A DNA stretch of 64,000 nt, taken from contig JANYHF010000025.1 in assembly GCA_025359185.1 (NCBI GenBank), positions 124,001 through 188,000 of the forward strand. The letters run 5' to 3'. Position 1 is the stretch's first letter, and every line of letters starts with the position of its first letter. The notes below the pieces were generated by a model, which saw nothing but the letters and a program-made list of their open reading frames with translations, was not told the origin of the DNA and searched no databases. Shown piece after piece: positions 1 to 10,714 of this stretch. This stretch comes from Hyphomicrobiaceae bacterium (GTDB lineage Bacteria > Pseudomonadota > Alphaproteobacteria > Rhizobiales > Hyphomicrobiaceae). A program made the translations under genes and the position numbers.

Positions 1-1484
1 TGCGCCAGGTGCTGCAAGGTGCGGTCGCACTGTTCTTTGTCGAGCAGCACGCCGTTGCGCACCGTATGCGAGACGACCAGCCGCCGGGCGCCGGACAAAT
101 CGGCGTCGGTCACTTGCAGATCGGGATCATGCGCGCTGACGTCGTAATGGCTTGAGAGCGTGCGGCGGACACGGCGGTAGCCTTGCTCGTCGTGGATCGA
201 GCGGACCAGGGCGGCGGGCGAACCGGCGGTGTCGCTGATTTCGAACAGCCGGAAATCGCGCATCACCTTGGGGCTGAGATATTGCAGCACGAAGCTGTCG
301 TCGCGGAACTCCGCCCACGCCGTTTTTAGCGTGCCGAGCGCATCGCCGTTGCCCGCAAAATCCGGGAACCACTCGCGGTCCTCCGTGGTCGGCTCTTCGG
401 CGATACGCTTGATGTCGCGCATCATGGCGTAGCCGAGCGCATAGGGATTGAGGCCGTTGAAATGCGGCTGATCGAAGCGTGGCTGGGTGACTACGGACGA
501 ATGGCTGTGCAGGAATTCCAGCATCGAGCCTTCGGTGAGCTGGCCAAGCTCGTGCATCCGGTTGAGGATTTCGTAGTGCACGAACGTGGCGCAACCCTCA
601 TTCATCAACTTGGTCTGGCGCTGGGGGTAGAAATACTGCGCCAGCATACGGACGATGCGCAAGAGCTCGCGCTGCCAGTCAGCGAGCTTGGGGGCGTTCT
701 TTTCGAGGAAATAGAGCAGGTTTTCCTCGGGCAGGCCAAGCGCCGCGCCCTCTTGCGGCGTGCCGCCACCGCCGGTCTTCTTGGCCTCAGGCTCCGGCCC
801 CGCGCCTTTGGGTACCGTGCGCCAGAGATCGCTGAACGTCGATTCCTCATACTCACGCCGTTGCTGCAGGCGCTCGCGCTCCTGCGCCAATGAGCGTACA
901 CGCCGCTTACCAGGATGCCGGCTGATGCCTTGCTGCATCAGCGCGTGTGCCGAATCCATGACGGCTTCGACCGCTTCGAGCCCGTAATGCTCCTCGCATT
1001 CGCTGACGAACGACTTGGCGAACGACAGATAGTCGAGGATGGCGCCGGCGTCGGTCCACTGTTTGAACAGGTAGTTGTTCTTGAAGAAATGGTTGTGGCC
1101 GAAAGCGGCGTGGGCGAGCACCAGCACCTGCATGGTCATGGAGTTCTCTTCCATGATGTAGCTGATGCAAGGATCAGAATTGATGACGATCTCATAGGCC
1201 AGCGCCCGGTGACCGCGCTTGTACATCGCATCTTCACGCGCAAAATGCTTGCCGAACGACCAGTGCCGGTACATCTGCGGCATACCGATTGAGGCGTAGG
1301 CGTCCAGCATCTGCTCGGCGGTGATGACCTCGATCTGGTTGGGGTAGACGTCGAGCCCCATCTCGCCGATGGCGATCTCTTCGATGGCGGCGAAGGATTT
1401 TTTCAAGAGGTCGTAGCTCCACTCCGCGCCCTCATAGAGCGGTGCGACCTTGCCTTTGCGCTTTGCCGGTTTTGCTGTCGTCAT
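1..1484 (-). CDS. spoVR: SpoVR family protein (partial, runs off left edge)
   Basis: Frame open from ATG at 1484 (MTTAKPAKRKGKVAPLYEGAEWSYDLLKKSFAAIEEIAIGEMGLDVYPNQIEVITAEQMLDAYASIGMPQMYRHWSFGKHF...), typical SpoVR/YcgB. Not in the ORF track because it has no stop in the window. Confidence 0.93.
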   Translation of the reverse strand, partial: MTTAKPAKRKGKVAPLYEGAEWSYDLLKKSFAAIEEIAIGEMGLDVYPNQIEVITAEQMLDAYASIGMPQMYRHWSFGKHFAREDAMYKRGHRALAYEIVINSDPCISYIMEENSMTMQVLVLAHAAFGHNHFFKNNYLFKQWTDAGAILDYLSFAKSFVSECEEHYGLEAVEAVMDSAHALMQQGISRHPGKRRVRSLAQERERLQQRREYEESTFSDLWRTVPKGAGPEPEAKKTGGGGTPQEGAALGLPEENLLYFLEKNAPKLADWQRELLRIVRMLAQYFYPQRQTKLMNEGCATFVHYEILNRMHELGQLTEGSMLEFLHSHSSVVTQPRFDQPHFNGLNPYALGYAMMRDIKRIAEEPTTEDREWFPDFAGNGDALGTLKTAWAEFRDDSFVLQYLSPKVMRDFRLFEISDTAGSPAALVRSIHDEQGYRRVRRTLSSHYDVSAHDPDLQVTDADLSGARRLVVSHTVRNGVLLDKEQCDRTLQHLA

Positions 1485-1515
1485 GCCAGTGACTATCCCC
1501 GCTAGGTCAATAGAA

Positions 1516-1599
1516 GCGAATAGTGAGTAGCGAATAGCGAATAGAGCTCCAACTTCGCACGCTTTTTCCCCTATTCACTATTCGCTACTCCCTGTTCGC
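1516..1599. repeat. Inverted repeat built of 7-nt tandem units (GCGAATA/GTGARTA type), spoVR-yeaH gap
   Basis: Left arm 1516-1546 GCGAATAGTGAGTAGCGAATAGCGAATAGAG; reverse complement of right arm 1569-1599 GCGAACAGGGAGTAGCGAATAGTGAATAGGG; 27/31 identical. Confidence 0.9.
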
Positions 1600-1605
1600 T
1601 CTTTC

Positions 1606-2892
1606 TTACGCCGCCTCCGCCGATCCGGAGAACAGCTCGCGGAACACGGGATAGATGTCGCTGGGCGACGACACGCGGCGCATGGCGAAATTCTCGTTGC
1701 CATCGACCAGCTCTTCGTAGCCGGTCCAGACCAGGCTGTCGGACATGCCGCCGCGCTGGTTCTCGGGCGCGACCTCGATATAGGCGAAATACTGCGTGAG
1801 CGGAAGGATGCCCTCCTGTAGCAGAGCCATGGCCTTGTCCATATCGTCGTCGAAGTTGTGACCATCGGAGGCTTGGGCCGTATAGATGTTCCAATCGGAC
1901 ACTGGATAGCGCTCCTTGACGATTTCCAGCATCTTATCGAACGCCGTCGAAATCACCGTACCGCCGGTTTCGGTGCCGCGGAAGAAGGTTTCCTCGTCCA
2001 CTTCTGCCGCCTCTGTCGTGTGCCGCACGAACACGACGTTCACTTCGCGATAGTGCCGGGTGAGAAAGACGTGCAGCAGCATGAAGAACTGCTTGGCGAG
2101 GTCTTTTAGCTGCTCGGTCATCGAGGCCGAGACGTCCATCAGGCAGAACATGACGGCTTGCGTCGTCGGTTTGGGGACGCGGTCGAAACGGTTGTACTGC
2201 ATGTCGAGCGGGTCGATATAGGCGACGGTTTTGCGCAAACGTACGAGCCGGTCAAGACGCTGGCGCAGTTCCGCGATCTTGGCCAAATTATTCGGCGTTT
2301 TGGCCTCTTCGGCGGCCAATTCATCTTCCATGAGCTTGATCGACAGGCTGCTGGGCCGGCGCAGGGCAATGCGGCGGGCGAGGCTGTTGCGCATGGTGCG
2401 CACACGGTTGAGTTTCGACGGCGGGCCATCGGACGAATAGCCAGCCCGTACGGGCTTGGGCGACTTCATGTCCTTCAGCTTGGCCTTGATCATGTTCGGC
2501 AGCTTCAGGTCTTCGAAGAACAGATCGAGGAATTCGTCCTTGCTCAGCGAAAACACGAAGTCGTCCTCGCCCGCCCCATCCGGGCTGCCCTTGTTGCCGG
2601 AGCCGCCACCGCCGCCCTGCGGCTTGGGAATGGCGTCGCCCGCCGAATAATCATGGTTGCCCGGCAGCACGAAGTCGCGCGAGCCCGTCGATGGATTGTG
2701 CCGGAACGTCGGCTCCCTCAAGCTCTTTGCACGGATCGACACCCGCTCGCCGCCCGCCACATCCGACACCTTGCGCTTTTTGAGGGCGTCCCGCACCGCC
2801 TCGCGCACTTCGTTCTTGGCCCGTCGCAAGAAGCGTTGGCGGTTGCCAAGGCTCTTGGCCTTGGGGTTCAAGCGGCGGTCGACGATGTTCAT
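1606..2892 (-). CDS. yeaH: DUF444 / YeaH-YhbH family protein
   Basis: 428 aa ORF with VWA-like 'FCLMDVSASM' motif; sits between prkA and spoVR as in the conserved operon. Confidence 0.92.
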   Translation of the reverse strand: MNIVDRRLNPKAKSLGNRQRFLRRAKNEVREAVRDALKKRKVSDVAGGERVSIRAKSLREPTFRHNPSTGSRDFVLPGNHDYSAGDAIPKPQGGGGGSGNKGSPDGAGEDDFVFSLSKDEFLDLFFEDLKLPNMIKAKLKDMKSPKPVRAGYSSDGPPSKLNRVRTMRNSLARRIALRRPSSLSIKLMEDELAAEEAKTPNNLAKIAELRQRLDRLVRLRKTVAYIDPLDMQYNRFDRVPKPTTQAVMFCLMDVSASMTEQLKDLAKQFFMLLHVFLTRHYREVNVVFVRHTTEAAEVDEETFFRGTETGGTVISTAFDKMLEIVKERYPVSDWNIYTAQASDGHNFDDDMDKAMALLQEGILPLTQYFAYIEVAPENQRGGMSDSLVWTGYEELVDGNENFAMRRVSSPSDIYPVFRELFSGSAEAA

Positions 2893-2917: not shown

Positions 2918-3002
2918 GGCAGCGGGCAGCGGGCAACAGGCAGCGGGAACAAAGAAGCGACATACCTTTCTTCCCGCTGCCTGTTGCCCGTTGCCTGCTG
3001 CC
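2918..3002. repeat. Inverted repeat built of 7-nt tandem units (GGCARCR), yeaH-prkA gap
   Basis: Left arm 2918-2949 GGCAGCGGGCAGCGGGCAACAGGCAGCGGGAA; reverse complement of right arm 2971-3002 GGCAGCAGGCAACGGGCAACAGGCAGCGGGAA; 30/32 identical. Confidence 0.93.
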
Positions 3003-3029
3003 ATTCTGGAGTTACCCGTTGCCTTTGTC

Positions 3030-4976
3030 TTAAGACGATTTTTTGACCCGCATATACCACTCGACCAGCCGCCTCACTTGCCTTGGCGTGTAGCCGCGCT
3101 CTTCCATGCGATTGACGAACTCGTCGTGCTTCTTGGCGGTGTCGCCGTCCTTCTTGGCACCGAACGAGATCACCGGCAGCAGGTCTTCGACCTGGCTGAA
3201 CATGCGGCGCTCGATGACGTCGCGGATCTTCTCATAGGACGTCCAGCTCGGATTCTTGCCGCCGTTCTTGGCGCGGGCACGCAGCGAGAACTTCACCACT
3301 TCGTAGCGGAAGTCCTTTGGATTACCGATGCCTGCAGGTTTTTCGATTTTGCTCAATTCCTGATCCAAGAGACCGCGGTTCATCAGCTGGCCGGTGTCGG
3401 GATCCTTGAAGTCGTGGTCTTCAATCCAGGCGTCGGCATAGGCCACATAGCGGTCGAACAGATTCTGGCCAAAATCGTTGTAGCTTTCGAGATAGGCCTT
3501 CTGCACCTCGTTGCCGATGAACTCAGCGTAGCGGGGCCCGAGCTCTTCCTTGATGAATTCGAGGTACTTGTCTTCCGTGTCCGCCGGATGCTGCTCGCGG
3601 CGGATCGACTGCTCCAGCACGTACATCAGGTGCACCGGATCGGCGGCAACCTCGTGTGTGTCGTAGTTGAAGGTTTCCGACAGCACCTTGTAGGCAAAGC
3701 GCGTGGACGTGCCGTCCATGCCCTCATTCATGCCGCCCGCATCGCGGTATTCAAGGATCGTTTTGGCGTGGACGTCGGTGTCCTTCAGGCTCTCGCCGTC
3801 ATAGACGCGCATCTTGGAGTACAGGCTCGAATTTTCGTGTTCCTTGAGACGAGTGAGCACGGAGAACCGGGCCAGCATTTCCAGCGTACCCGGCGCACAC
3901 GGCGCTTTGTTGACTTCGCTGGTAGCCAACAGTTTCTCGTAAATCTTCCGCTCTTCGGTGACGCGCAGGCAGTAGGGCACCTGCACCATGCAGATACGGT
4001 CGAGGAACGCCTCGTTGTTCTTGTTGGCCTTGAAGGTTGCCCATTCGCTTTCGTTGGAGTGGGCGATGATTACGCCCTGATAGGGCAGTGCGCCGACATT
4101 CTCTGTGCCAACATATGTGCCGTCCTGCGTTGCGGTGAGCAACGGATGCAGCATCTTGATCGGCGCTTTGAACATTTCGACGAATTCGAGCAAGCCTTGT
4201 GTCGTTCGGTTGAGGCCGCCCGAATAGGAGTAGGCGTCGGCATCGTTCTGGCCGTGGAATTCCAGTTTGCGGATGTCCACCTTGCCAACCAGGGACGAAA
4301 TGTCCTGGTTGTTCTCGTCGCCCGGCTCGGTCTTGGCGACGCAGATCTGGCGTAGTTTCGACGGGTACAGTTTTACCACGTTGAACTTCGAGATATCGCC
4401 ACCGAACTCGTCCAGCCGCTTGATGGCCCAGGGGCTCATGTAGCCGGTAATCTTGCGGCGCGGGATGTGATACTTTTCTTCCAGCATCTGCGCTGTGCTG
4501 TCGGGCTGGAACAGGCCGAGCGGGCTTTCGAAAATCGGGCTGATCTCGTCGCCCGCTTTCAGCACATAGACCGGGCAGGTCTCCATCAATTCCTTCAGCC
4601 GCTCAGCCAGCGAGGACTTGCCACCGCCGACCGGCCCGAGCAGATAGAGGATCTGCTTACGCTCTTCCAACCCCTGCGCCGCGTGCCGGAAATAACCGAC
4701 AATGCGCTCGATGGTTTCTTCCAGGCCGTAAAAGTCCTTGAACGCCGGATAAACCTTCAGCGTGCGGTTCATGAAGATGCGGCCGAGCCGGGCGTCGCGC
4801 GCCGAATCGATGAATTGCGGCTCGCCAATGGCCGTGATCATGCGTTCAGCCGCGCTGGCGAACAGCATTGGATCGGTCTTGCAGCCCTCAAGGAATTCCC
4901 GGAGCGAGAGCTGCGACTGCTTGTTGCGGTCGTAGCTCTTTGCATAGATATCGAAGATTTCATTTTCTGATGTCAT
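3030..4976 (-). CDS. prkA: PrkA family serine protein kinase
   Basis: Walker A 'LLGPVGGGKSSLAERLK'; PrkA-type sequence throughout. Start placed at MTSENEIFDIYAKSYDRNKQ (4976) rather than the longer ORF at 5117. Confidence 0.93.
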   Translation of the reverse strand: MTSENEIFDIYAKSYDRNKQSQLSLREFLEGCKTDPMLFASAAERMITAIGEPQFIDSARDARLGRIFMNRTLKVYPAFKDFYGLEETIERIVGYFRHAAQGLEERKQILYLLGPVGGGKSSLAERLKELMETCPVYVLKAGDEISPIFESPLGLFQPDSTAQMLEEKYHIPRRKITGYMSPWAIKRLDEFGGDISKFNVVKLYPSKLRQICVAKTEPGDENNQDISSLVGKVDIRKLEFHGQNDADAYSYSGGLNRTTQGLLEFVEMFKAPIKMLHPLLTATQDGTYVGTENVGALPYQGVIIAHSNESEWATFKANKNNEAFLDRICMVQVPYCLRVTEERKIYEKLLATSEVNKAPCAPGTLEMLARFSVLTRLKEHENSSLYSKMRVYDGESLKDTDVHAKTILEYRDAGGMNEGMDGTSTRFAYKVLSETFNYDTHEVAADPVHLMYVLEQSIRREQHPADTEDKYLEFIKEELGPRYAEFIGNEVQKAYLESYNDFGQNLFDRYVAYADAWIEDHDFKDPDTGQLMNRGLLDQELSKIEKPAGIGNPKDFRYEVVKFSLRARAKNGGKNPSWTSYEKIRDVIERRMFSQVEDLLPVISFGAKKDGDTAKKHDEFVNRMEERGYTPRQVRRLVEWYMRVKKSS

Positions 4977-5384
4977 TTCGACCTCTGCCTCGCCTGTTGT
5001 TCCCGCTTTCCGAACCCGCTCGCCAACGGCTGCGACACCGCCATAAGGTTCAGCGCGGCCAATTGCGCGCGTCAAGATCCCGGCACACCTGCCCGCAGAC
5101 CCAATCTCGTGATGCACATACTACCATTCCCGGAGCGGAAACTGACAAGAAAAATGCGTCTCCGGCCGATGCAGCGCGTGATCAACTCAACGCGACCATT
5201 GATGCCAAAAATGGTGTTTCGAAGAACGCGGAAACCAATCGGCAAAGCGAGCTCGATGGGAACGTCGCAAGGACATGGACACGGTCCCGGACAAATCAGC
5301 GCTAGCACGAATCATAGCATAGGTCGCGGGCCGCGCGGATCACGAATGTTGGTGGTGACGGCGCGGGGGCAATTCAATTCAAAC

Positions 5385-5475
5385 GTCATGGCCGGGCCTG
5401 ACCCGGCCATCCAGGGTCCAATGCACAAGCGTCGGACTTGCTGTCCTGGATGGCCGGGTCAAGCCCGGCCATGAC
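5385..5475. repeat. Dispersed palindromic repeat (paired arms)
   Basis: 5385-5415 GTCATGGCCGGGCCTGACCCGGCCATCCAGG is inverted at 5445-5475 (30/31); each arm also has internal dyad ATGGCCGGG/CCCGGCCAT. Confidence 0.9.
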
Positions 5476-5532
5476 GAAGTCGATAAGAAACGAGCGATTG
5501 AGTGGGTCGAAGAACCGTCGCCTGGTAGGCCG

Positions 5533-9870: not shown

Positions 9871-10714
9871 CGCAACCACCGAGGTGCCGCTGGTGCGGAC
9901 GGGTGCTTTTGACCTGAAGTGGCAGCCCGGCTTCGGCGTGGCAACGATGGTCTGCCTTGTGCTGCTCTATGCACCCATGATTGTGTTGTTTGTGTTTTCC
10001 TTTAATGGCAGCGACTCCATCACGCGCTGGGGCGGCTTGCCAAATTGGCACTGGTATACTGAGGCGTTTGCCGATCAGGAATTCCGCAGCGCCGCCATGA
10101 ACACGATCAAGATAACCGTCGTCGCCACGATCATTTCCACATTGGTTGCCACCGCTGCTGCCATCGGCACCACCCGTGGCCGCCGGTTCGCTGGCCAAGG
10201 TGCGATTTACACGGTCGTCAACCTGCCCTTGATGGTTCCCGAAATCATCACCGCGATTGCCACGCTGTCGTTCTTTTCCTTGCTGGCGCAGTATGCGGGG
10301 ATCAATTTCGGCATCGGCAACCTGATGCTGGCCCACACCGTGTTCTGCATCCCCTTCGCCTATATGCCGATCCGGGCGCGGCTGGAGGGCATGGACGAGC
10401 GGCTCGAGCAGGCCGCGGCCGATCTCTATGCGACGCCCTGGCAGGCCTTCAAGCGCGTGACCTTGCCCTTGCTGGTCCCGGGCATCAGCGCGGGCACGGC
10501 CCTCGCCTTCATCGTCTCCTTCGACGATTTTACCATCACGCAGCTGGTCGCGGGTCCTGGCCAAACCACATTGCCGCTCTATATCTGGGCCAAAACCCGC
10601 AGGCCGCTGACGCCTGAGTTGAATGCCATGTGCACGATCCTCCTGGCGATCTCGATTCTCTTTGTGGTTGGGTCATTCCTGATCGCGAACCGCCGCCGTT
10701 CCAAAACTGAATAA
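9863..10714 (+). CDS. potC: ABC transporter permease (PotC/PotI-like)
   Basis: Multi-TM protein, 'QAAADLYATPWQAFKRVTLPLLVPGI'. Start taken at ATG 9863, overlapping the upstream gene by 8 bp. Confidence 0.87.
   Translation: MADATTEVPLVRTGAFDLKWQPGFGVATMVCLVLLYAPMIVLFVFSFNGSDSITRWGGLPNWHWYTEAFADQEFRSAAMNTIKITVVATIISTLVATAAAIGTTRGRRFAGQGAIYTVVNLPLMVPEIITAIATLSFFSLLAQYAGINFGIGNLMLAHTVFCIPFAYMPIRARLEGMDERLEQAAADLYATPWQAFKRVTLPLLVPGISAGTALAFIVSFDDFTITQLVAGPGQTTLPLYIWAKTRRPLTPELNAMCTILLAISILFVVGSFLIANRRRSKTE

Follow-up and report, generated by a model that had tools for sequence, protein, structure and literature searches.

That heptamers are over-represented in bacterial genomes has long been known, to our knowledge with neither a cause nor a function given. 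The closest known case to the structures considered here is the GGGAATC repeat of Xanthomonas campestris and axonopodis, which forms 70-75 convergent inverted pairs of arrays per genome, near stop codons (Rehm et al., 2015, PMC4692102). In the Nostoc tRNA-Leu(UAA) group I intron, according to the account of Costa et al. (2002) given in PMC3488679, degenerate heptanucleotide repeats pair into a hairpin in the P6b stem. In Geobacter metallireducens, tandem heptamers occur in sets of 4-5 dispersed over the genome, and one class of them is displayed as paired sites (PMC2700814).

The window, that is, the whole stretch of 64,000 nt analyzed here from a Hyphomicrobiaceae bacterium, contains a long hairpin of tandem heptamers between prkA and yeaH, and further hairpins of the same build occur elsewhere in the genome. 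Like the Xanthomonas arrays, they consist of tandem 7-nt units that are paired convergently, with the G-rich arm first on each strand (22 of 22 sites). In Xanthomonas, however, one G4-capable unit was studied per genome and many arrays are unpaired, whereas here many units coexist and nearly all arrays are paired. The unit at this locus is GGCARCR, unlike the G4-capable GGGNATC of Xanthomonas, and the G4 motif is absent here and at 20 of 22 sites in all. Moreover, related genera have different units in the corresponding gap. REP/BIME elements of enterobacteria and other proteobacteria are similar in being short palindromes just past stop codons inside operons, and they are able to protect the upstream mRNA; here, in contrast, a RAYT transposase was not found, the arms are tandem heptamers, and the sequence is not fixed. 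The Nostoc P6b stem also has degenerate heptamers in both arms, but it is a single intron locus, in contrast to dispersed intercistronic sites. The Geobacter elements differ in having a fixed consensus per class and are proposed regulator binding sites (PMC2700814). A literature search for heptamer hairpins in alphaproteobacteria, with subscription journals outside its coverage, found no description. The sequence-only reading of this DNA, which knew of no described hairpin of this type, was only partly right, since heptamer arrays in inverted pairs have been reported in Xanthomonas (PMC4692102).

Heptamer hairpins in the prkA-yeaH-spoVR operon

The flanking genes are identified as those for PrkA, DUF444/YeaH, and SpoVR. 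The operon lies on the minus strand, and the prkA-yeaH gap is 137 nt long. In the order of transcription, the features are:

3030-4976, minus strand: prkA (PrkA serine protein kinase), the upstream gene
3012-3024, minus strand: degenerate units outside the hairpin, GGCAACG GGTAAC, located after the prkA stop and ahead of the right arm
2966-3002, minus strand: right arm of the prkA-yeaH hairpin, reading GGCAGCA GGCAACG GGCAACA GGCAGCG GGAAGAAAG on the minus strand
2955-2965: loop of the prkA-yeaH hairpin, 11 nt, AAGCGACATAC
2918-2954, plus strand: left arm of the prkA-yeaH hairpin, GGCAGCG GGCAGCG GGCAACA GGCAGCG GGAACAAAG
1606-2892, minus strand: yeaH (DUF444), the gene between the two hairpins
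1571-1600, minus strand: right arm of the second hairpin, reading AGCGAAC AGGGAGT AGCGAAT AGTGAAT AG on the minus strand
1515-1544, plus strand: left arm of the second hairpin, AGCGAAT AGTGAGT AGCGAAT AGCGAAT AG, in the yeaH-spoVR gap
3-1484, minus strand: spoVR, the downstream gene, with the start as called in the analysis

The prkA-yeaH hairpin is real, and its heptamers are both tandem and inverted. The 32-nt arms originally read as identical at 30 of 32 positions are contained in arms of 37 nt (2918-2954 and 2966-3002) that are complementary at 34 of 37. TRF independently reports the tandem structure, with period 7 at 2918-2947 and period 14 at 2973-3002, and the further unit seen outside the hairpin (about 3013-3022) is confirmed, on the minus strand (GGCAACGGGTAAC). 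The left arm is purine-rich on the plus strand; its complement is the 3' arm in the operon mRNA, and the right arm corresponds to the 5' arm. The suggestion that the mismatches at 2924 and 2929 become G-U pairs applies only to RNA of the plus strand, the antisense of the operon; in the operon mRNA both are A.C mismatches; a third arm mismatch is at 2950. The operon-strand RNA folds with -75.0 kcal/mol versus -44.6 +/- 3.85 in dinucleotide shuffles (z = -7.9), and none of 200 shuffles folds as well. The Rfam search yielded nothing above the gathering score, only sub-threshold, microRNA-like matches; such models respond to any long hairpin. A search of the plasmid collection gave no match.

The second hairpin (1515-1600), built of the unit AGCGART, lies 5 nt past the yeaH stop codon and also has an RNA z of -7.9. 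Thus, yeaH is bracketed by heptamer hairpins of different unit. A separate imperfect palindrome of about 94 nt lies upstream of prkA at 5384-5477; it matches unrelated hairpin models below threshold and looks like a conventional dispersed palindrome.

Inverted heptamer arrays across the genome

Searches by pattern and, starting from the hairpin, by BLAST found many GGCARCR arrays in the genome, the majority having an inverted partner. A census that left the unit free covered 1.17 of 4.04 Mb, partly contigs picked for carrying a match (the genome is 97% complete), and counted tandem arrays with periods of 4-12 whose inverted partner lies no more than 130 nt away. The census contains 32 inverted period-7 arms at 22 sites, versus one arm in a third-order Markov control; four of the sites are in the unbiased part (464 kb, window included). 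The safe number is 21 loci, because the contig ends C23 and C97 look like halves of one locus. Period-7 arrays without an inverted partner are at the chance level (28 versus 30 in the control), and thus the excess heptamer arrays are essentially all inverted. The other periods give 0-6 inverted-array arms, mostly codon-like, so that the large excess is seen at period 7 only. The genome search for GGCARCR arrays proposed in the sequence-only reading found both the inverted arrangement and the location in operon gaps, and the outcome that would have spoken against it, plain tandem copies lacking inverted partners, did not emerge in the 1.17 Mb.

The units found in this genome include GGCARCR, AGCGART, TCGGGAC, TAGGGAY, GGCGAAT/GGGAGTG, TGAGTCG, and GGCTTTA. 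Each arm consists of about 3-5 degenerate heptamers, and the arrays are convergent. The two arms match by unit, but not detectably by the order of unit variants: the register test, which looked for hairpin-templated copying from arm to arm, was not significant, at low power. The purine-rich arm is 5' in 22 of 22 sites, versus 24 of 67 other hairpins in the sequence covered. A further dispersed family of hairpins, CCCTGTCCCTCTCCCC, has the opposite polarity, with a C-rich 5' arm (L122 17594-17687 and L117 11973-12072).

Co-directional gaps hold 15 of the 18 intergenic sites, a mild enrichment that alone is not significant, since about 66% of gaps of 60-250 nt are co-directional; a few copies lie between convergent or divergent genes or in coding sequence. 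Within co-directional gaps, 14 of 15 sites are closer to the stop codon (median 6 nt) than to the next start (median 28 nt; P = 0.001). The host operons are central ones, with several gene names taken as recognized by eye from translations. Both gaps are occupied in prkA-yeaH-spoVR, in rpsK-rpoA-rplQ, and in DUF2849-sulfite/nitrite reductase-DUF934; the nuo operon also carries more than one copy (nuoC-D and nuoH-I gaps), and further hosts are pntAA-AB, MarR-fabI, and lysC-ptsP.

In the gene for NrdJ, the B12-dependent ribonucleotide reductase, a hairpin (L152 6755-6823, contig C43 of the host genome G000) coincides with an in-frame insertion of 21 residues that is absent from 11 relatives. Thus, at least some copies arrived through insertion of new DNA, and palindromic elements inserted in Rickettsia genes are comparable. 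In one element on C43, the two arms carry different unit variants. A long graded array on contig C114 of the same genome (L202, about 10079-10184), passing from GGCAACA through GGAAGCA to GGAAGAA, is a snapshot of unit turnover. The window hairpin and the C23/C97 locus share the inner sequence GGGAAnAAAG..CTTTCTTCCCG.

The same gaps in related genomes

Hyphomicrobiaceae genomes were searched for yeaH, and their prkA-yeaH gaps were compared. Genera differ in the length of this gap, which is 22-34 nt in some and 75-160 nt in others. The hairpin is not essential, because some relatives have the short gap without it. Among gaps of 75-160 nt, inverted period-7 arrays occur in 6 of 20, versus 2 of 75 control gaps (Fisher 9e-4), and a fold z below -2 in 16 of 20, versus 9 of 75 (Fisher 1e-8); the controls are co-directional Hyphomicrobiaceae gaps of equal length from a different mix of genomes, and the relatives are not independent. 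Each of the six gaps has its own unit: GTGAACG (also written GGTGAAC), TAGGGAG, TAGCGAG, GGTGACA, GTGAGTG, and GGCRGTA. In the genus g13, each of the four members has its own repeat hairpin in this gap, though only a weak one in L095. Inverted arrays of octamers (CGTGAGAT, GTGAGTGG) replace heptamers in two further prkA-yeaH gaps of the 75-160 nt set (L101 and L171) and at L142 6476-6545 (genome G006).

A similar situation is observed for the rpoA-rplQ gap, where 15 of 21 relatives have z below -2 and 3 of 21 have heptamer arrays; the rpsK-rpoA gap is structured in 6 of 20, much less often. Taken together, the prkA-yeaH and rpoA-rplQ comparisons indicate that a stem-loop is kept or regained at these places and its sequence is not. 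The rpoA-rplQ gap (L225-L254) contains a second element, GAGGTGAGGCC..AGAACCTCCCCG, ahead of rplQ; it is conserved in most family members and is probably an rplQ leader hairpin. At the level of the order, inverted copies of the GCGARTA version occur in 5 of 298 genomes; no genome has the reversed control pattern.

Function and origin of the hairpins

The suggestion of an intra-operon element holds as far as a structural element is meant, given the positions of the 22 sites and the excess of structure and heptamers in the gap of relatives; its attenuator part is not supported. The very stable stem-loop in the prkA-yeaH gap would agree with an intrinsic terminator or attenuator, but this is an improbable explanation: a U-run after the stem is absent on both strands, the terminator scan has no match at 2918-3002, and the stem is far longer than in typical terminators. 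The explanation we favor, at about even chances, is a REP-like intercistronic stem-loop that is made of a dispersed, fast-changing heptamer repeat and blocks mRNA decay or separates neighboring genes. The prkA-yeaH hairpin is one copy of a dispersed class of short elements, in which two convergent heptamer arrays make up a long stem-loop, and the copies lie mainly in co-directional gaps, a few nucleotides past the upstream stop codon. By analogy with E. coli REP/BIME and puf, the stem-loop in a polycistronic mRNA would block 3'-5' exonucleases after downstream cleavage; this could stabilize the prkA segment and uncouple the dosage of prkA, yeaH, and spoVR. Protective hairpins inside operons have precedent in the puf intercistronic hairpin (PMC5927463), and REP elements are cited likewise (PMC5082802). 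Because the stem sequence would be irrelevant to such a function, the heptamer unit would be free to drift and to re-amplify by slippage within each arm, and the match of arms by unit, with no detectable match in variant order, fits separate slippage per arm. An intercistronic stem-loop acting in the transcript is suggested by the post-stop position, by the occurrence in operons of some length, and by a stem that is retained although its sequence is not.

A serious rival, to which we give a distinctly smaller though substantial probability, is a neutral or selfish dispersed repeat, mobile or locally amplifying, that has no host function and survives past stop codons because insertions are tolerated there. 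It would account for the in-frame insertion in NrdJ, for the inner sequence common to the window copy and the C23/C97 locus, and for the copies in convergent and divergent gaps. It also agrees with the lack of an RNA-strand asymmetry: arm mismatches read in the mRNA sense comprise 18 G.U and 16 A.C, and the folding energy is no better in sense than in antisense (9 of 15, P = 0.33), so that there is no direct sign of selection on the RNA stem, which counts against the favored explanation. However, the genome, at 97% completeness, encodes no IS200/IS605-type Y1 (RAYT) transposase (PF01797, no matches), no common ends or target duplications were seen, and the units differ within the genome. Reverse transcriptases are found, and nothing ties them to the heptamer repeats. 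Furthermore, tolerance alone does not predict hairpins in the prkA-yeaH gaps of relatives far above the control gaps. A less conventional origin, which we consider unlikely, is a dedicated process of fixed 7-nt step, by a telomerase-like or slippage-prone polymerase, in which a break or nick has both of its 3' ends extended by G-rich heptamers, the unit being reset at each event; the result would be convergent arrays. If true, it would explain why period and polarity are constant and the unit is freely chosen, why the arms match by unit and not detectably by order, and why the arms of the C43 element differ in their unit variants. Least probable of all is a quadruplex element, in which the arrays would form a G4 through their G-rich strand, a fold that has been proposed for the heptamers of Xanthomonas and Nostoc. 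The purine- or G-rich 5' arm at all 22 sites and the geometry shared with the GGGAATC repeats are in its favor, but a canonical G3+ motif occurs at 2 of 22 sites only and not at the prkA-yeaH hairpin, and units such as AGCGART and GGCTTTA contain no G-tract.

In summary, four features are new here: (i) many units per genome, (ii) near-obligate inversion, (iii) a site that is kept while the unit changes, and (iv) G4 motifs in a small minority of sites. Period, inversion, and arm polarity are constant and the unit is free; an operon gap keeps its hairpin across genera with a new unit. What is kept (a post-stop stem-loop with a 7-nt step) is thus separated from what is not (the sequence and its G-tracts), which weakens the quadruplex account. 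The prkA-yeaH-spoVR, rpsK-rpoA-rplQ, and nuo operons are the ones in which a role in mRNA stability and the mechanism of amplification can be tested.
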